Assembly (NCBI GenBank): GCA_015956445.1
Contig: WIUZ02000016.1
Coordinates: 434,001 to 498,000, forward strand
Source: Thelephora terrestris
Taxonomy: Eukaryota; Basidiomycota; Agaricomycetes; Thelephorales; Thelephoraceae
DNA length: 64,000 bases
Direction: 5' to 3'
The position numbers and the translations under genes are program-made. The first letter of the stretch is position 1; every line of letters starts with the position of its first letter. This document shows, one piece after another, positions 16,001 through 37,345 of this stretch. A model generated the notes under the pieces. That model was not told where the DNA came from and made no database searches. It saw nothing but the letters and a program-made list of their open reading frames with translations.

Positions 16001-17319
16001 CCCAGTAAAAAGTTCTCACGACGTGTGTTGACTTCCGGTGATCCCCGTCGATGGTAAAGCGCCCGTCGACCGGGGTCTATGGGAGTCCAAAAATCGAATA
16101 TTTCATTTACCTCCGTAGATTTTTTGTGCATCCTGCGTAACGCATATTTTTTTACGCCTATTTTCGTGCAATATAAACGACTCTGGACGACTTCGGGTGA
16201 CCTGGGGCGACCATTATCGACTACTGTCGACTTGTTTTTATTGTTGCTATGCCCGCCGTCACTTGCTTTCATCAGTTGCAGTCGATTCGGAACGACATTT
16301 GTTGATTGCTGTAGATCTACAGCGACTTATATAGACTAGTACACAAATGCGAGATAATTAATACAGTTCCTCTCCGACTTGCGTCCTCGCAGGGTTCTGC
16401 GCCTTCCGTTCTGCCAGGAAGGCACGTGATCGACATACACAGTTGAGAGGATTGCCGTGAAACTACATACCCTCGCGTCCAGCTGAGCCTAGATACAAAA
16501 CAAAGTGGGATGAGATACTGGTTAGATGAGATGCCACGTCAAGTAACCATTTCACGCACTGTACCCGCGTCATTCCGAACTCCCCTCGTCGTGCTCACTT
16601 GTCTACACAGGCGGGCAGCATCTTGGCATGCAAATGATCGCCTGGAGGTTGTGCCTGTGGGGCTGTTACGTTAGGAGCAGTAAAATTAGACAAAATCATA
16701 GGAAATGGGAGGAGGGAGGAGGGGGCACAGTAGCGGCTGACGACGTCAAAGTGGTTGGGGGGCAAAAGGAGTTTGAGGGAGGCAGTCGGGTTTGGTTTGT
16801 TTTAACTTATGTTTGAGGATCGCCGATCACGATGACGTATGATATAAACGATCGCACCGCGGCTGGGAATCAACTTCGCGAGAGGTCGCCCGCGCAAATG
16901 GGGTTACTTATTGTTGGTATCCCCAGTGTAAAGATTTCTTTCAATCTTCTTATGATGCTTTGGACGCTTGCGCCATTTGTTGTCTTCGGGAGTACACTTC
17001 ATCACAGAGGTCGAAACATTGATGAGGAGATCATGTCAGAGGATCAAGTTATTGTTAGACTTAGAGAAGTTTTTCCTGACGAGATGATTTTTTTTCGATC
17101 GCGTTGCTTCGAAATTTTATTAAAAATGTATTATAATTATATAAGGCGGCGCGCACACGTCGTTGAAGTGCAAAGACGCATGTCGAAGTGCGAAGATGCA
17201 TGTTGAAGTTGGTCGAAAACGGTGGCCAAATCGATGGACCTCGTTCGGGGTCGCCCGGGGTCTACGCGATCAACCAGGATCCATACCGATCCGTGCCGGT
17301 CAATGAACTTTTTACTGGG
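16001..17319. mobile_element. 1.3 kb DNA transposon with 15-bp TIRs
   Basis: The ends are perfect inverted repeats, CCCAGTAAAAAGTTC at 16001-16015 and its complement ending at 17319. The flanks are a 7-bp direct duplication ATTGAAT (15994-16000 and 17320-17326); the uninterrupted sequence is present in NLR-2 and NLR-4. The interior has subterminal repeats, GACGACTT/CGACTACTGTCGACTT near the left end and GTGCAAAGACGCATGTCGAAG-type repeats near 17165-17205. An open frame at 16832-17206 matches nothing I know. I read it as a non-autonomous TIR element. A 7-bp duplication does not fit the 8 bp usual for hAT, so I leave the superfamily open. Confidence 0.85.
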
Positions 17320-18904
17320 ATTGAATTGTCCCTCACTTCCCCAACATTCCGCAAACTTGACACAAACGCGCGCGACCTCCTCGGAGTGGTCGCTTTCTTC
17401 CCGCGAGGAATCGACGAGAAAAACCTTGACTGGCTGTTCCCCACCGTTCCCAGTAGAAAGCTCATCTTTGACAAGTTCTGTGCTCTTTCATTGACGTACC
17501 GGAGCAACGGCTTTGTCACAATGTTGGCACCCATTCGAGACTATCTCTCCCCCCAAGCCCCTATGTCATCCCCACTTCTTTGCACTACCAAGGATCACTA
17601 CCTCACCCGGCTGTCGGTTGATCTTGATCCTGACCTACCCGGATTTGGCGAAGCACAGTGGATCAAGTCAGAAGACGAGAACATTGAGCACCTGCTTGAT
17701 ATTTTCGCGTCCATCGACATGGACGCACTCGATGTCTGGGATTCTTGTCACCACTTCATGGACCACCTCTATTGGCAAAAACCACGGCAAACAGTGCTGG
17801 GCTCAAAGATCGAAGGCCTTCCCGATGGCCATCCCTCCAAGGTCAAATGCTTGTTCTCGCTTTCATGGTTGTTTGAGTCGGTTGGAAATTACGTAGAAGA
17901 AAAACGCCTCCTTGTTCATACCTTGGCACTTGCAAGAAAGCAGGAGGACGACTTTTGGGTTGCTCAATCATTACAATCATTATCTCTTGTCAATCGATAT
18001 CTGGGACTCTTCGAGGAAGGGATACGACAGGCGGAGGAAGCATTGGAAATGTTCGAACGGCTCGGGGACACGGCGGAGCAAGCGATTTGTTTGGTTTCCC
18101 TCGCCCGGTTGTTGCTTGACGACGATCAACTCGACGCTGCTCAAGACGCTGCGTTACGCGGGATCGAACTTCTCCCGGAGAAAGGCGAAGAATTTCTGCT
18201 CTGCCAATCTCATCGCGCTCTTGGCGAGATATATCATCGCAAGGGAGAGAAAGAGAAGGCCCTTGACCATTACGAGACGGCCCTAACGATCGCATCCCCC
18301 TTCAATTGGCAAGATGAACTATTTTGGATTTATTACGAGATGGCGCTGCTCTTTCTCGATGACAACAAGTTCAACGACGCAAACGCCCGCATCGAACAAG
18401 CCAAATCACACACAGTTGACAACGCATACTACACGGCCAATCGGATCTGATGCTCGGGGTGATGTCGAATGTGGACGTCGCCTGATATGAGGAATCCCGA
18501 GGGATCGATATCTGTTGACGATTAACTTACTGTTATAAGATATCACGCGACACGGTAGACGTCCGTAGATATCATACATTTTTCGACCAACCGCCCTTGC
18601 GATCCAGCCTTCCACCCCAATACACTTGCTACCGTTGGGCGAGAGAACCAAGAGTCATATCAATTATGCATGTCATGAAGTACAAGTTTATGAGAGTATG
18701 GGAAGTTATTCAACGGAAGCGTCTGAGGTCGAAACAAATTCGTCCATTGACAACTGGTCCTCGGACTGCTGTACACTTGCCAAGGCAGTCTGCGCAGAAG
18801 CAGAGCCTGTGCTTGGAGGGTAATTTTGCTCATCGGCGTCCAGGCATTTGACGAGGATCCTATTGCACGATCAGGTACACACAAAGATAGGATTTGCTGC
18901 GGAC

Positions 18905-20225
18905 TCACTCAGAGGCACTTAAACCATTGCCCGATGCAGCATTCTGACGGATGTCAGTAAGCGTCTTGTCAACGGACGTCCAGAAGGTATCCGAGGGATC
19001 TTTGTCATAAACTTGTCGCTGAAGGTGGCGATTGAGTGAAATCTATGACTGGATGACAACGCGGCACTCACAAGAAGCGCGAAACGGACAGCGACGGTCA
19101 CCGAGGCACTCATGTCACTTCTAAACCACTTCTCGAAAGCCTTTGCCATTTCCTTGAGGAGAACGGTGATATGGAGCCTTTCTTCGACAGCATGGCGGAT
19201 CTGCCGGGCGATTAGCAAGTAATGAACGGCAAAACACAAACGCTTACCACGTCTTTCACTTCAGAACGTGCGTATCGGCACGACGCCTTGATCTTTGATC
19301 GAAGGACTTGGTACGCCTCGCCTTCCAAGTATTTCTTGTTGATTCCCGACTTGGTACGGAGCCATTTCTCAAAGTGCGGCTCGTTTAGTTGGACATCCAC
19401 CACGAAAAAGGGGAACTCACAAGGACGATTACTCCTGGGCCTGTTTTCAAGTCCTTTCCCAAGGCTCGATATCGTGATAAGCTGGGAGACACAATGACGA
19501 GCCTCGCACGGTAATCTATTTCGTCCTAAAAGCAATCGTCTCAGCAGTCTACTACAGGTAATTGCAGCTGGGTACCTTTATCTTTTTCGGTAGGTCCAGC
19601 TTTTCACCCGTCTGTGATCCCTCCATTGCTGCAGACTCGAGGCGGGAGTAAGCCTCACTCATTTTGATGAGTGTGGCTTGCTGGTAGATTAGGGCTGACC
19701 TCGTATCAAGCTCAATGCACTACGTCAAAGTTGTGAGTACCTGGAAAAAAAAGGTAATACCTGACTAAACCGGATGAGCGAATTTTCCCCATTGGTGGTG
19801 AGCCGAAGGTTACGTGCGGTGTTGATGGTGAACGCGGCGATTGCATCACGAGAGTTCTGGGTGCTGGCTTGATGTTGGACGTCCCGGTTTTCAGTGCTAT
19901 CTTGCAACCCCTCAGGCTCGGTATCTGACGACAGTTCACCATCACCACCTGAGGTCGTTGAGGTGTTCTGTTGCATTGGTAGTGTCAATGAGGTGTTGGA
20001 AGTGTCAGAAATGATGTCGTTGAGGAAGCTGCTCATCTTCGCAGAGGGGGGGGGAGTGGAAGTGGGGACCAGAGGTTGAGGCAAACAAATCTTCACTCGA
20101 TCGGGTGCAAAGCCGGAGCCCGCCATTTCTGGACTTCGTTTCGATGACTGACCGGCCTGGATCCCGTCGACTGAGAGCACCGTTGCCAGATTGTGAGTGA
20201 GACGCTCATCGCGTGTGCTTATCAA
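18905..20225 (-). CDS. Transposon companion protein (unknown function)
   Basis: Multi-exon gene on the - strand of the 5.9 kb element. The first exon (from 20225) is Ser/Thr/Pro-rich with FLNDIISDTSNTS and then AIAAFTINTARNLRLTTNG. A middle exon (about 19535-19240) contains LITISSLGKGLEN and PHFEKWLRTKSGINKKYLEG. Later parts include LHITVLLKEMAKAFEKW and a final piece near 18960 reading FWTSVDKTLTDIRQNAA before TGA at 18905-18907. From memory, similar unnamed proteins sit beside the transposase-like gene in many mushroom genomes; I have no function for them. The divergent arrangement, with start regions overlapping the + gene by about 30 bases, suggests a shared bidirectional promoter. Exact splice sites are not all resolved. 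Confidence 0.55.
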
Positions 20226-23200
20226 GACTTATCGTTTGCAGGTCTCGAACGGATTCCATCTGGGAATGGAAAACGTTCCGATGACAGGTTTCGTTGCACA
20301 GTCTGTATCGAGTATGGGTCAGACGACGAATCTAAGACGTTTACCCCAAACAATAAGACTGCCCACCTTCAGACCACGAAGCACAGAGTTTCGTTGAACA
20401 CCCGTGCACGAAAACTGGCGGAGGAAGGATCAGCGCGGGAACAAGTTGAACATGCCCAACTTCCGCATTCGGTCCTCCTTCCACTGCCGGAGTTTCCGTC
20501 GGCCCATCCCACCGGTTCAGACGACGGAACATCCAATATATTGAAAGGCTTTCGTCGACTTGGCCTCGATTTTCTCGATGAAAGTGGAGAACGGTTGGAG
20601 TTCTCTGCAGGGGCTGACTCAGGCGACGAGAGGAATCGAACGGAAAACGAACGGGATGAGGCTCCTGATTCCGATCATTCAGATGAGTCTGAAAGCGATG
20701 TTGCCAGCCAAGAGCCCGGATGGACCACGCAAGACAGTGGGTTGGGCGACTATTGGCCGTATCCTTCGAAAACCGTCAGTGAAAGATTACGAGCATCAGA
20801 TACTTCGGCACTTACAAAATGACTAACCAGATGCTCGTCTTGGATATTCTTGACAACATGCCACATCTGAGGCTCTCTGATGATCACATGAAGACGGTTT
20901 TGTGGATGCTTGAGGAACTGGATGTACCAGACACACCGAGTTTTTATGCACTCCGTGAGACACAAAAGAGGCTTGCGGAGGAGATGGATATTCAACCGCG
21001 CGAGCATATCTCCGCGCTTGGACAGAAGTTCCATGCCGTTGCTCCGGAAGATTTGCTAGCACTGGTCAGTGATCCTTCTCGTTAAAATTTAATGATCTAC
21101 TTACAGTTCACAGGACTGGGCCAACCCACACGTGCGAAATTCGATGTGTTTATACCCGGAGGTTACGTCCTCAATCAGTGAGTCGTGGCAGGCAGGAAAA
21201 TGGCGTGAAGAGGTCCCTCTCGATGAGTTATCACCAATGTGGGCAGACTGGGAAGCCTCGCCAGAGCAACACTTCTATGTCAATGAGGTTGCGTGCACCA
21301 GGGCAGGGAAGTACATCTTGCCAAAGCGATGGATTGTTGTCGATAAAAAGGAGTACACCGAAGGCAACCCTGTCTACTTCAGTGAACGTGTAAGTTGTAC
21401 GAGAGTCAGTTTAATCTACGTGCTGAGACTTTGCCTATAGAGAGGGAGGTACCGGGTCAGAACGTCCGAAATCATCCGCGTTCCGGTGGATCACCTACAG
21501 TTGACCTTCCCTGAGATCAAGGCACTCGGACGGGGGGGATTTCAACGTGAGCGGGTCAATGTATATCTCAAAACCTATGACTGATTATTCGAAAAGATTT
21601 TAGCCCAAACCCAGTCCGAGCCATTGCAAAAGGCAGACCGGTCTTCAGTCTCCGAGTCATGCCGTGGGCTGACGACGTATCTGGAAACCGAAGTAAACAA
21701 TACAACCCACACATCAACATTTATATGAAGAACTTGAATATACCTAGCGAGAAACTCAAACAGCAATTTTTCGTTCGGTTTTGTTCAACATCACCCGACA
21801 CGAGCTCCAACGAACAGTTTCGAGCATTTCTTGAGAACTGGTAAGCTTGGCCCCTGTTGTAACCCGCAGTAAGCTCACACACCAACAGCGGCCACGAGAA
21901 ATACATACCGGCATATGATTGTCTGCTCCAACGTGAAATTTTGTTTCGAATCTTCCCGCACCACCTACCAGCCGACAACCCACAACAGGCAGAGTCGGCA
22001 TCAGGCATTGGCGGGAATGGGAACCTGAACTGTATCCGAGATAAGTCAGGTGGAACAAAGGAACAAAAAGAGAGTAACGACGTCTACCATGCTTTGTTTG
22101 CTGTGAGTAGTCATCACATTCTCCAACGTAAAAATAATTTAATTGAGTCCTCCTGAGCCCGGGGAAAAGCGCAGGATGGTGCCAGAGACTGTGCAAATAA
22201 TCAAGCAGCAGATTTATTTGGCGTGTGAGGGAATCGCATGCAGGGTTTCTGATCTTCAAACCGAGACCGGCATCAAAGATCGAACGGCACAATACTGGAT
22301 CGACCGTGCGTTGGAACGGTCATCTGAGCTCATGCGGCAACGACTCCATGAACCTGAAACACAAGACCCCCGTCTCAGAGGGAAACTGAAGCCAGATGAA
22401 CGAAAACAAATCAAGGAGATGATTCATTCCGAGGTCTCAGCAGAGGTGAGACGATGGGTGATTGAGCAACCACCGGAACGGTTCAACGAAATTCCACAAG
22501 AATCATGTAAGAGTTATGTCCTCCCTGACAGCAGAACCCCCCCAGAACTCATTGGGATAGACCTTCGCAATGAACTCCGCCCGGGAGATCACTATAACAT
22601 TTTGTTTGGGTTCCCAGGCACGTTTATTTCTACTGAATGCCCGACACTTATACAACACATCTAAGATTGAACCCATACAGGATTGGATCCTCATCAGGAC
22701 TCCTCGATTGACCTGCTTCACACGATACTCCTTGGTCTGGACAAGTATGTGTGGCATAAGACAAGCAGCGCCTGGAATGAGAGGAAGGGAACACTCTTTG
22801 CATTGCGGATGGATTTAGCATCCTCGTTAGATGGCTTAAGCGGGTCACGCGAGGATGCTCGGTACCTCATCAAATACAAGAACAATCTTGTTGGACGGCA
22901 GTTCAAGTTCATCCAGCAGCTGGCCATTTTTCATCTACGTCGAGACATGTGCAATGACCTTGTCTTTGACCTGTGGAAAGCGACAGGCGAACTCGGAGCT
23001 TTGTTGTGGTACCCTATTATCAACAATATGGAACAATATCTGGTGAGTCAAAGATGGTGCACTGTCCATTTGTGTGTAGTCATTGGCGTTCATTCTTCAG
23101 GCTGATCTCAAAGTTCTGATCGCAAATGTCCTCGATATTTGGGCGAAGATTGACGCAAACCGCATAATCGACAAAATGAAACTTCATGTTCTAACACACT

Positions 23201-24132
23201 TGCCTGAAGACGTCCTACGATTTGGTCCACCAGGTTTATATATTGTCGAAGGGTTCGAAGGCTGGAACCGAATCTGGCGGCTTTGCAGTATTCTGTCAAA
23301 CCACCATTCGCCGAGCCGTGACATTGCCATCAAGCTTTGCAAGGCTGAGCGCATTAAACATCTTTTGAGCGGTGGTTTTTGGCAGGACAAGAACTCAAAG
23401 GCATATGTACAAGCAGGTAAAGCTGTGTGGGGAATGTTCGACTCTGACAAAAAGCTACGACGACGCCTTGGTTGGAACCAGACGCCGGGCTTGGCACCTG
23501 GAAAGTTTGCCTCTCAGTTGAACCGCGTCGATCATTCTGACCTCATGTCCCTTGCATAGGCTCTGTCAAGCTCGTCCCTGCAAAGAGACAGCCCAAGAAC
23601 TGCACGTGGGATGAGCTCTTTGACTCTGGGACCATCCCACCACCGCGCCCTGATGGTATCGCCGCTGACGAGACCCTGTCGATTGGCGAGAGCATCATCG
23701 CAACATCGGGAGATGTCTGCAAGGTTGGCTCGTGGGTTTTTTGTCGTTCGACATCTGTGCGCCATTTTACTGTCCTGTGTGTATGAGATTGACGAGGTCA
23801 GCACACAGAACGGTCGACCGAGAGCGAAGATCGAGAGGAAGATCATGCACTCCACCCATGACAAATACTTCATCAACCTGCACGCTCTTCACAATGCGTG
23901 GCGCCTTCGTGAAGTCCTGCCCCGAAACCTCACGGAACCTGTGCCTTATGTTGATAACCGTGAGGAATTCCACCACACTATGGCAAGAAAATTGCAGAAG
24001 GCAAACCCCAAGAAGCGTGCAAGGGCGAAGGAGAAGGCGAAGGACACGCGCGAACGAAAGAAACGAGCGGTCGATTCAACGGGGGGAATCGAAGACATGC
24101 AAAGTGAAGACGAGGTACATCCAGCGTTGTAG
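20193..24132 (+). CDS. Putative DDE-type transposase, multi-exon
   Basis: Large spliced gene filling the right two thirds of the element. The N-terminus has a zinc-finger-like CTVC...HLQTTKH, followed by an acidic region. Exons about 20193-20774, 20831-21064, 21114-21389 and from 21441 on give DYWPYPSKT|MLVLDILDNMPHLRL, ALDWANPHVRN and HFYVNEVA. The next pieces contain MPWADDVSGNRSKQYNPHIN (candidate first catalytic Asp) near 21660-21715, CLLQREILFRIFPHHLPADN, and YWIDRALERS. LDPHQDSSIDLLHTILLG near 22685-22735 resembles the Tnp2 Asp-His region, and GLYIVEGFEGWNRIWR lies near 23235-23280. The C-terminus (about 23560-24132) has a basic tail, KKRARAKEKAKDTRERKKR. The splice junction near 22507-22680 is unresolved and may hold a lesion. 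The transposase call is inferred from element ends and the Tnp2-like spacing; the true start is uncertain. Confidence 0.6.
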
Positions 24133-24635
24133 TATCACCCGATATCTCTGGAATACGACTGTAGATATCAACGATATATTTGAAATCGTTTGATATTTTT
24201 GTAACATCCATATGTATCAATAAAGCATCTCGTCCTGTGAATATCCCCAGACGTCACCTGGGACATCAGCTGGTATCGAGTTCGATCGGCCGTGTACCTG
24301 GGTCTTGGGATGGAAATGCAGGCTCATATTTGGCACCGGCAATGTAGACTGGAAGATGCGAGGGCTGAGGTTATGCGAGCATCTGAGCTCCACCAGAAGC
24401 TTGGGTTGGCGAAGGGTGTGGAGGGCTGTAGGGAGTTACTCCAAAAGATTGAAGAAGCAATGGGAAGCTAGGTATCAAACGAAGGAGGGGGGGACTTCCT
24501 TTTCGGGCAACCACCACTTATCCGTTCGGACTTTGAGTGGGTCGGCCAGCAAAATCGAAGTATTTACTCTTCTCTACACCGCATTCAACCCTAAACCTAC
24601 TACCAATCGCACAATAAACAAACGTCCCACATTGC

Positions 24636-26243
24636 ATGCCAAATCCTCCGGGTAGGAGAATGGCCTCAGGCCCCATCAAACCCAGCCAGCCAATCAAACA
24701 AGTACACGAAGCAATGAGAGCCATACCGTCCGCAGTGAAGAACGCAGAGGATGCCAGGTCATATTTATTCTCCAAAAACTGGCTCACCCCAGCAGACGAA
24801 ATCTCGCTCGAAACCCTGGCAAGAACCCTTTTCGGGCTGGTTATTGATCCCACCGTCAAACTCAATAAAGAAGCATCTAACCCGATCCTCGCCGTCGCCT
24901 ATCTAATCACCGAGAAGTGCGAAGACAATATCAGACTCAATGTGGCCGACACCATCACCAAACACCTGCTGGACGCACTAGCCCCAATCACTAACAGCAT
25001 CCAAGAGAAGTTTGATACGCATCTGAAGGCCGTCACTGAATCCAACAAAGCCTATCTGGAGATCAACGAGAAACTGCAACAGACGCAAGAGAAGTTAGAG
25101 GAATCAGCCCAAAAGGCAACAACCCCCACCAGATCCTACAGCCAAGCCGCCGCCACCCCACCACAGCAACAACCCCCTCCCCCCTTCCCCCCCTTCCCCA
25201 CCTACACGTCACCCAACGCAGCACTCTCCCAGCTTCAAGTCAAAAACCGAGAGGAGGTAAAGAGACGGCAAGTATTGATCGACTTCGATAAGGACGCGAA
25301 CCCGTCCCTCGAAGTACTGAACGAAGCAACTCTCACCAGGAAAGCCAAAGACGCCTTGAACGCCACCTGGGCGGCGGCGCGGGAACCCAAACCCGAACGC
25401 CCAAACTTAAAAACGATCATACTGATGAAGAACGGCGGCTTACTCTTAGAACTAGATTCCACGGAAACAGCTGACTGGCTTCGCCACCCCAACACACGCG
25501 AAAGCTTCCTAACAGGCCTAGGATCCGGGGCGAACATCAAAGACAGAACGTACCAAGTGATCGTGCAGTTTGTGCCGATCCAATTCGACCCAGAGATACA
25601 GGAGAACTTGAGGAACTACGAGATCTTTAACGGTCTCGAAGAGAACTCAGTACTAAAGGCCGAATGGATCAAACCGCCCGGATCGAGAACGGCAACCCAG
25701 AAAGTAGCGACACTAAGGGTATATCACAGGGACGTGGAGTCCGCCAACAAGATCCTCAGCGAAGGTGCGTCTGTCTTCAACAAACCCACAGTTCCGAGGA
25801 AGCCCAAGAAGGAGCCCATGCGGTGCCTACACTGCCAATTATTTGGCCACGAACGCCGGGACTGTAACTACGAGTACCCGAGATGTGGTCGATGCACCGA
25901 GACTCACCGAACTGACGAGTGCGAAGCTAACCCAGACGAGTTCAAATGCGTCAACTGCTCAGGTAACCACCCTAGCTACAGCAGAAACTGCTCCTACTTT
26001 GAAGAGAGATGCAAACGAACTGACATGAGGAGACCCGAAAACAACCTCGCCTTCTACCCCACAGATGAACCGTGGACCTGGGCCACAATGCAGCTACACA
26101 CCCGCTCGAACCCACCAGATCCACCCCGACCGCCGCCACCAGCCCGTCAGCCAGGCCTCCGCCAAACCCACCTCACCCACAACACCAACGCCCCCACGAC
26201 GAACGTGACCAGAGACGCACCCCCCCCGAACCCCCCCCAATGA
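24636..26243 (+). CDS. LINE ORF1, zinc-knuckle RNA-binding protein
   Basis: ORF1 has 535 codons from ATG 24636 to TGA 26241-26243. The N-terminal half is helical with a likely coiled-coil stretch (EKLQQTQEKLEESAQKA, about residues 145-160) followed by a Pro/Gln-rich linker. The C-terminal third carries three Cys/His knuckles: CLHCQLFGHERRDC, CGRCTETHRTDEC and CVNCSGNHPSYSRNC (about residues 395-455), as in ORF1 or Gag-like proteins of I/Tad1-type LINEs. The protein would bind the element RNA and form the particle used for target-primed reverse transcription. The frame is undamaged. Its stop overlaps the ORF2 start as ATGA. Confidence 0.9.
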   Translation: MPNPPGRRMASGPIKPSQPIKQVHEAMRAIPSAVKNAEDARSYLFSKNWLTPADEISLETLARTLFGLVIDPTVKLNKEASNPILAVAYLITEKCEDNIRLNVADTITKHLLDALAPITNSIQEKFDTHLKAVTESNKAYLEINEKLQQTQEKLEESAQKATTPTRSYSQAAATPPQQQPPPPFPPFPTYTSPNAALSQLQVKNREEVKRRQVLIDFDKDANPSLEVLNEATLTRKAKDALNATWAAAREPKPERPNLKTIILMKNGGLLLELDSTETADWLRHPNTRESFLTGLGSGANIKDRTYQVIVQFVPIQFDPEIQENLRNYEIFNGLEENSVLKAEWIKPPGSRTATQKVATLRVYHRDVESANKILSEGASVFNKPTVPRKPKKEPMRCLHCQLFGHERRDCNYEYPRCGRCTETHRTDECEANPDEFKCVNCSGNHPSYSRNCSYFEERCKRTDMRRPENNLAFYPTDEPWTWATMQLHTRSNPPDPPRPPPPARQPGLRQTHLTHNTNAPTTNVTRDAPPPNPPQ

Positions 26244-36400: not shown

Positions 36401-37345
36401 GAGCACCTCTATTGGCAGAAACAAAGGCAAACGGTGCTTGGGTCAAAGATCGAAGGCCTTCCCGATGGCCATCCCTCCAAGGTCAAATGCATGTTCAGGC
36501 TCTCACGGTTGTTTGGGTCGGTTGGAAATCAAGTAGAAAAAAAACGACTCCTCGTTCATACCCTGGCACTTGGGAGAAAGCAGGGGGTCGGCATTTGGGT
36601 TGCTCTAACATTACAATCATTATCTCTTGTCAATCTACATCTGGGACTCTCCAGGGAAGGGACACAACAGGTGGAAGAAGCATTTGAAATGTTTGGACGG
36701 CTCGGGGACACGGTGCAACAGGCAATTTGTTTGGGGAGGCTCGCTCGGTTGTTGCTCGATGACGATCAACCCGACGCTGCTCAAGACGCTGCATTACGCA
36801 AGATTGAACTTCTCCCGGAGAAAGGCGAAGAACATCATCTCTGCCAATCTCATCGCCTTCTTGGCCATATTCTTCATTCCAAGGGAGAGAAAGAAATGGC
36901 CCTTGAACATTTCGAGACGGCCCTCACGATCGCATCCCCTTTCAATTGGCAGGGTCAACTGTTTTTGATTCATCACGAGATGGCGTGGCTCCTTCTCGAT
37001 GACGACAGGTTCGACGACGCAAACACCCACATCGAGCAAGCCAAATCACACGCAGTTGACAGCGCATTCTACCTGGGTCACGGGATGGAGATGCAGGCTC
37101 GGATTTGGCATCGGCAATGCAGGCCAGAAGCTGCGAGGGCTGAGATTCTGCGTGCATTCGAGGTCTTTCAGAAGCTTGGGTTGGTGAAGGAGGTGGAACG
37201 CTGTAGAATGCTCCTCCAACAGATCGAAAAAGCAATGGGAAGCCAGGTATCAAATGAAGCAGGTTCTGGTGGTAAGTTTTGTAGCTGCAATGCTGCTTCC
37301 CACCCCCGTTAACCCTGTCTCATCTTAGCCTACAGTGCGCCCTAA
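33480..37345 (+). repeat. Direct repeat unit C (upstream block plus NLR-4)
   Basis: Third, shorter copy of the repeat: the upstream block 33480-34553 (no gene seen; matches 6664-7779 and 13431-14586) and NLR-4. The DUF6535 and AAA pseudogenes seen in units A and B are absent after NLR-4, so the unit ends near the NLR 3' end or was cut short there. Confidence 0.82.
34554..37345 (+). CDS. NLR-4: intact class II NB-ARC/TPR receptor
   Basis: Best preserved class II gene, about 844 residues. Proposed exons: 34554-34721, 34778-34801, 34849-34973, 35024-35162, 35213-37271 and 37329-37345. Residues 1-152 are an N-terminal GTSGPGGRAG stretch followed by a coiled-coil-like region (EIRRLN, EELARSGLG, DKLQGLSDRIENVGRM, DVFALIDGIRDTVADC). 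NB-ARC begins after SIPGESPPPAPRDFFGRE, with P-loop GAGGIGKT near residue 196, [38 protein letters not shown], and MLAPIRDYL at the MHD position. Six TPR-like repeats of ~40 residues follow. The terminal intron leads to a short AYSAP tail. It lacks the transposons of NLR-3. Likely cytosolic; the ligand is unknown. Confidence 0.87.

Follow-up and report, generated by a model that had tools for sequence, protein, structure and literature searches.

A two-gene DNA transposon family that duplicates TA in Thelephora terrestris, with a large protein probably related to Tnp2 transposases

According to the passages on these groups in Kojima 2025 (PMC12730594), DNA transposons of the CMCT clade have CA..TG termini in most cases and target-site duplications of 2-5 bp. 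The DDE triad of this clade belongs to an RNase H-like core, and C(2)C and H(3-4)H motifs lie between its second D and its last E. The fungal EnSpm elements in those passages have CAC..GTG ends and 3-bp duplications. ESTA elements are EnSpm-like elements with TA duplications and an EnSpm/RAG1-like transposase, described there from Pucciniomycotina as families with a TET/JBP gene, with others given in Data S1 of that paper, and Plavaka, a member of the CMCT clade, has the ends TGT..ACA or CATCA..TGATG and, in some cases, 2-bp duplications (PMC12730594). For maize Spm, the relevant portion of the source (PMC1636069) states that TnpA and TnpD are both essential, that TnpA acts on the element promoter and that TnpD stabilises TnpA DNA binding. 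Here we analyse a block with inverted ends and two divergent spliced genes, one for a large protein and one for a companion, which lies in a 64,000-nucleotide stretch of Thelephora terrestris DNA (hereafter the window; GCA_015956445.1, contig WIUZ02000016.1, G000:C8:434001-498000; genome of 40.6 Mb in 60 contigs). Our preferred reading, to which we give a probability of roughly 0.7, is that the block is a DNA transposon of the cut-and-paste type, with TA as its insertion site and as the duplicated target, that its transposase is remotely related to Tnp2 of EnSpm/CACTA and, on weaker grounds, that its companion may have a TnpA-like role. No title or abstract opening listed in searches of an open-licence library names this two-gene TA family.

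Element ends, target site and copies

The block opens with TACACGGCC and closes with GGCCGTGTA. Its inverted ends, TACACGGCCAATCG (18430-18443) and CGATCGGCCGTGTA (24283-24296), are complementary at 13 of 14 positions, in agreement with the CACGGCC...GGCCGTG ends read in a first-pass annotation of the sequence. The inverted repeat is about 14 bp long, not 55 bases as assumed there, and further inward the left and right ends are dissimilar. At the corresponding position, two paralogues of the interrupted host gene, at 37072 and 10298 of the window, have just one TA and lack the element; they share 87.0% and 86.6% identity, respectively, with the left 1-kb flank and 81% and 78% with the right flank. 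Because these paralogues hold a single TA without the element, the TA is a target-site duplication, and the duplication and empty site proposed earlier were thus borne out. At the window site alone both TA and TAC fit; TAC as a 3-bp duplication was ruled out, as the other copies show only TA.

Both ends were matched against the genome, the left one over 89 bp and the right one over 95 bp; each gave at least five places, and these pair into five elements (Table 1). All five have TA beside both ends and lie in unrelated flanks. As the earlier annotation had expected of a search with the ends and both proteins, both genes were found between CAC..GTG ends in every copy, with a 2-bp TA. Over shared columns, the window copy is 99.32% identical to L006 and L007 is 98.94% identical to L008; identity between these two close pairs is 89-90%, and L009 is about 73% identical to the rest. 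Since each close pair occupies independent sites, movement was recent. The window copy and L006 differ at 40 positions, 39 of them transitions, 30 of which are at CpG, and L007 and L008 differ at 65 (56 transitions, 45 at CpG), an excess of CpG transitions that is as expected for young copies decaying through cytosine methylation.

A 16-base end pattern, allowing at most one mismatch, occurs at 25 genome places, compared with 6 for the reversed control. Ten of the 25 are the ends of the five copies, and four more were inspected individually. One of these (L052, G000:C12:1343992) is a right end only, with 31 bp identical to the L007 right terminus followed by unrelated sequence; no partner end lies within the 3 kb read, and it is possibly a non-autonomous derivative. 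At C23:952579 and C45:154586 a family end adjoins the transposase C-terminus, and C12:2307192 is an 18-bp match to the pattern and nothing longer. Copy number is low, and the end searches of the genome found no swarm of short copies bearing these ends. L009 is flanked by telomere-like repeats of the CCTAAC type, which lie about 0.5 Mb from the contig end and therefore form an interstitial array.

Two divergent genes and their relatives

The two divergent spliced genes described earlier held up, with splice models consistent across copies; the first-pass annotation had also suggested that both proteins recur among Agaricomycete genomes as hypothetical proteins. Splice sites were fixed by comparison of copies in places where the window sequence would mislead by itself, introns 5, 7 and 8 among them. 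The transposase model of L006 has 14 exons and 1198 amino acids, exons 13 and 14 being modelled on L006 and compared with the other copies by eye. The window copy had been called complete and is not: relative to L006, its nearest sister, it lacks 348 bp comprising the end of intron 12, the whole of exon 13, intron 13 and the start of exon 14. For exons 1-12, the modelled acceptors are AG in all five copies and the donors are GT, except for GC after exon 9 (four of five copies) and after exon 11 (three of five), and the latter makes the junction of exons 11 and 12 the least secure. Exon phases are equal through exon 9 in five of the five copies, for exon 10 in four and for exons 11-12 in three. 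The L008 transposase is broken by a nested 3.3-kb insert in exon 10, and that of L007 has an in-frame 54-nt deletion in exon 11. In L009 a stop interrupts exon 8, and exon 11 holds a 956-bp insert of repetitive appearance by eye.

In all five copies, every companion intron is bounded by GT..AG and the joined exons form a single open frame of 341 residues (344 in L009). A start of exon 2 lying 9 nt earlier was rejected, its AG being missing in three of five copies and that of the chosen site present in all, and the alternative start MAGSGF was dropped because the copies differ by indels of 2-3 and 11 nt in the stretch preceding ATGAGC. No Pfam match was obtained at E<=1 with the first companion model, which is 3 residues longer. 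A search of Rfam yielded nothing. Between L006 and L009, 42% of intron sites differ, and the ratio of nonsynonymous to synonymous divergence (dN/dS, Nei-Gojobori) is 0.105 for the transposase (exons 1-12, dS 1.12) and 0.135 for the companion (dS 1.31). Both genes have diverged under purifying selection. Transposase dN/dS inside the young pairs is higher, at 0.34 and 0.55, values based on few changes.

A genome search with the transposase core found the five copies and three diverged loci, L016, L017 and L018/L019. The terminus of L016 is the same TACACGGCC, and the C45 fragment is 96.5% identical to the L016 end. At L017 a divergent companion lies beside the transposase (tblastn E 0.002-0.005). 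Pieced together, this companion reached an hhalign score of 39.7 (probability 72.6%, 33 columns), the maximum in 100 shuffles being 21.2. Across the genome, companion searches detected the five copies and L017; the search that returned L017 also gave two of the copies at E 0.097 and a weaker 38% match on C38 with E 0.22. The earlier claim that the companion travels with the transposase is thus supported, in all five copies and also beside the diverged L017 transposase.

Probable relationship of the large protein to Tnp2

The genome is rich in Tnp2 (PF02992, Transposase_21; 73 match rows), Plavaka (PF18759; at least 132 rows, with 123 of 261 candidates scored) and KDZ (PF18758; 125 rows). Profiles were made from hand-picked groups (Tnp2 8 + 6 loci, Plavaka 5 + 3, KDZ 8) using the longest open frame per locus, which overlaps the family hit in all 22 Tnp2 and Plavaka loci. 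A diverse four-row profile of the large protein reached an hhalign score of 40.3 with Tnp2 group A (probability 34%, single-comparison E 4e-4), which none of 30 column shuffles attained (maximum 24.6). Tnp2 group B gave three weaker collinear sub-hits in the expected order (26.8, 25.8 and 22.4; shuffle maximum 25.4). The Plavaka profiles scored 17.0 and 15.4, equalled by 17 and 22 of 30 shuffles, and so gave no signal; KDZ scored 16.7, equalled by 3 of 30, a weak negative because the overlap of the longest frame with the family hit was checked only for the Tnp2 and Plavaka loci. Membership of either group was rejected: the protein has no Pfam match to Plavaka or KDZ, no profile score clear of shuffles, and none of the at least 132 Plavaka rows (among the 123 of 261 candidates scored) or the 125 KDZ rows falls at family loci. 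At the level of remote homology, the profiles support a relationship between the large protein and the genome's Tnp2 (EnSpm/CACTA) transposases.

In the numbering of the L006 transposase, the first Asp was placed at DDVSGN (D425/D426) by likeness, outside the scored alignment. The profile alignment with Tnp2 places the second at D510 of ADNPQQ, C(2)C at C529, IDLLH (687) on the Tnp2 DFMH segment, H(3)H at 827 and Glu at 851. Of the earlier proposal, the Tnp2-like nature of the protein stood as remote homology, and LDPHQD as the second catalytic Asp did not, since the alignment gives D510 and LDPHQDSSIDLLH falls on the DFMH segment. Side by side, a 28-residue motif of L017 can be set against Tnp2 FGDYPALAKLMHMKGHNGVCPCRFCEIHG, and window HVLTHLPEDVLRFGPPGLYIVEGFE against Tnp2 HSLTHLGPETARLGPPSLSAQWTME. 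D425, D426, E848 and E851 are invariant in all four profile rows, and an H(3-4)H motif (HVLTH, HLLTH, HILTH, HILGH) lies between the second Asp and the last Glu in each. L017 keeps the C(2)C as CRRC, and the decayed L019 is without the second Cys. The motifs of the CMCT clade, D, C(2)C, DxxH and H(3)H-GP-E, were found in this order, with C(2)C degenerate in the moving lineage. We infer that the large protein is a DDE transposase with D425 or D426, D510 and E851 as its predicted catalytic residues. It probably also carries an N-terminal CCHH zinc-finger-like motif, recognised by eye, and a C-terminal domain that would be partly lost in the window copy. Judging from the aligned residues, the recently moving lineage appears to have kept the first C(2)C cysteine and lost the other.

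Proposed mechanism and alternative explanations

Like EnSpm/CACTA elements, the family has CAC..GTG ends, short terminal inverted repeats (TIRs), the same catalytic motif order and two proteins. Unlike them, it has no PF02992 match, a 2-bp TA in place of a 3-bp duplication and, in the moving lineage, a degenerate C(2)C, and its companion is a separate divergent gene. Lacking two features of fungal EnSpm, the Transposase_21 match and the 3-bp duplication, it may be described as an EnSpm/CACTA-like variant or distant cousin. The CAC..GTG ends and TA of all five copies agree with the termini and duplications of the CMCT clade; because motif order, ends and 2-bp duplication all fit this clade, excision by a DDE enzyme followed by TA insertion is the likely route. 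In this scheme the large protein would cut the element out and insert it at TA.

GATATC palindromes sit between each tip and the genes, outside the central 107-bp interval. The outer 170 + 170 bp contain 5 in L006, 5 in L007 and 7 in L009, with 2 in each interior; shuffling gave means of 0.34-0.48, and the observed count was reached in 0 of 2000 shuffles. These clusters resemble plant EnSpm/CACTA elements, in which short motifs are clustered inside both ends. By a weaker analogy with maize TnpA, the companion may bind the candidate GATATC sites at both ends, draw the two ends together and control the shared promoter interval. A catalytic protein with a DNA-binding partner would be reminiscent of maize Spm TnpA/TnpD and Schistosoma SmTRC1, as described in part of the source (PMC1636069). 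In those systems, unlike the two divergent genes of the fungal family, the proteins arise by alternative splicing of one transcription unit.

Several observations weigh against a Tnp2-related transposase acting with such a partner. The 1198-residue protein has no Pfam match at E<=5, its exon pieces gave only sub-threshold Pfam matches (best E 0.066), a sequence search of the PDB gave nothing better than E 0.29, and none of the 73 Tnp2 rows lies at loci of the family. A first profile of low diversity (eight rows, five kept by hhalign) scored 30.5 and 33.7 with Tnp2 versus 31.5 for a reversed Plavaka control. D510 is present in three of four rows and is Asn in the decayed L016, and in C(2)C the place of the second Cys is taken by Asp (CIRD) in all five copies and by Gly (CIRG) in L016. 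The companion was not detected in targeted comparisons at L016, L018/L019 or C45, which leaves the transposases of L016 and L018/L019 without a detectable one, and DNA binding by the companion is putative. No ends were found at L018/L019. Genes located elsewhere without these ends had been named in the first-pass annotation as evidence against a two-gene element, and on this point the outcome was mixed: apart from the CACGGCC copies, L017 was the one locus at which the companion was detected; it has both genes, but the stretch read yielded no ends. The transposase C-terminal domain was detected genome-wide only at loci of the TA-inserting two-gene family.

Shallow alignments and the inconclusive first comparisons would suit a chance resemblance to Tnp2 in thin profiles, with a transposase from another DDE superfamily. 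We consider this improbable, as the score exceeds 30 of 30 column shuffles and the order of D, C(2)C, DxxH and H(3)H-GP-E is shared. The few copies and the lack of short derivatives might likewise suggest a segmental insertion or an immobile gene pair, an explanation that deserves almost no weight next to five copies that share their ends, are bordered by TA left and right and lie in unrelated flanks, and next to an empty site in paralogues. For the companion, the alternative to an end-binding partner is an anti-silencing factor, for which VANC proteins offer a comparison, or a regulatory one, comparable to TnpA in its action on the promoter, with the large protein transposing alone. The 30 CpG transitions among the 40 differences between the window copy and L006 suggest cytosine methylation of the element, and a mere 107 bp separates the start codons of the two genes. 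Similar constraint on both genes and palindromes placed between tips and genes, not in the central interval, argue in the other direction and make this explanation rather unlikely.

The placement of the family is a further question. It may belong to a named lineage, most likely ESTA or fungal EnSpm, which we regard as possible but somewhat doubtful: the passages in Kojima 2025 (PMC12730594) define ESTA by TA duplications and an EnSpm/RAG1-like transposase and give EnSpm families CAC..GTG ends, whereas ESTA is described there from Pucciniomycotina and EnSpm with 3-bp duplications. Compared by description only, ESTA shares the TA duplication and the EnSpm-like transposase with the family and, as described there, differs by its Pucciniomycotina origin and TET/JBP gene (PMC12730594). 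Plavaka shares the CMCT clade and, in some members, a 2-bp duplication, and differs in ends, Pfam match and profile similarity. Only tentatively would we set the family apart as a lineage of its own within the EnSpm/Transib/RAG1 clade, separate from the named EnSpm, Plavaka and ESTA, with a divergent partner gene in its autonomous copies, a TA target, putative GATATC partner sites and loss of one C(2)C zinc ligand in the recent branch.

The window copy sits in the TPR end of its NLR-type host gene, from which it cuts off the last 57 codons. The gene is of NLR type because its TPR repeats follow an open frame with a P-loop, GAGGIGKT, recognised by eye; the frame enters the element for five residues (TANRI) before a stop. 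Eight more places in the window, distributed over both strands, align with the host gene through the point of insertion, with 72-87% identity in the left flank, and 3392-63982 is a dense array of NLR-type paralogues in which the site at 18430-24296 is the interrupted member. Directly behind the severed gene end, at 24618-26243, lies a 541-codon open reading frame (ORF) with CCHC-like zinc knuckles that resembles a LINE-type ORF1 by eye.

Table 1. Features of the window copy and its host gene (window positions), family copies and diverged loci
Feature	Position	Strand	Remarks
Whole element without TA copies	18432-24294		starts CACGGCC, finishes GGCCGTG; TA on either side
Left target-site duplication, TA	18430..18431	.	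single TA at empty site of paralogues 37072 and 10298; TA at both ends in 5/5 copies
Left TIR, CACGGCCAATCG	18432..18443	+	same end in 4/5 copies; L009 has CACGGCTGAACG
Left subterminal region	18432..18600	.	3 GATATC palindromes
Companion gene, 341 aa, 7 exons	20036-19761, 19710-19576, 19525-19421, 19367-19251, 19200-19072, 19018-18909, 18859-18706	-	span 18706..20036
Interval between the divergent start codons, 107 bp	20037..20143	.	candidate two-way promoter; from gene models, promoter role putative
Transposase gene, exons 1-6	20144-20192, 20242-20774, 20831-21064, 21114-21389, 21441-21546, 21597-21840	+	gene spans 20144..24132
Transposase gene, exons 7-12	21889-22102, 22188-22506, 22561-22617, 22681-23042, 23101-23526, 23571-23735	+	
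Junction of 348-bp internal deletion	23775..23776	.	comparison with L006
Transposase exon 14, remaining part	23776-24132	+	exon 13 missing
Right subterminal region	24130..24282	.	2 GATATC palindromes
Right TIR, CGATCGGCCGTG	24283..24294	-	present in 5/5 copies
Right target-site duplication, TA	24295..24296	.	empty-site paralogues and copy comparison
TPR portion of interrupted NLR-type gene	17167..18450	+	ORF list; TPR_12 E=7.6e-17
Severed 3' end of interrupted gene, 57 codons + stop	24298..24471	+	ORF list, flank alignment
Window copy	18430-24296		5867 bp with both TAs
Copy L006	same contig as window copy, 47 kb away		6215 bp
Copy L007			6159 bp
Copy L008+L010	G000:C11:32959-42479		9521 bp including 3.3-kb insert
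Copy L009	G000:C56 near 1987966 and 1995182		7217 bp including 956-bp insert
Diverged locus L016	C23		36-77% identical by segment
Diverged locus L017	C8		28-47% identical
Diverged locus L018/L019	G000:C60:434500-454300		decayed; split at transposase residue 865 by about 10 kb of other DNA

Altogether, the analysis assigns two proteins without Pfam matches to an element whose boundaries are fully defined and for which ends, target site, gene models, recent copies and candidate binding sites are available. With the large protein read as a Tnp2-related transposase and the companion as its putative partner, a two-protein transposition system in a fungus becomes directly testable, and the family would offer a way to ask if the clade to which RAG1 also belongs can do without the C(2)C zinc pair. 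Its sequences may serve as probes for annotating such proteins in other fungi, and the window copy is a documented case of a transposon that severed the 3' part of a single member of an NLR-type array.

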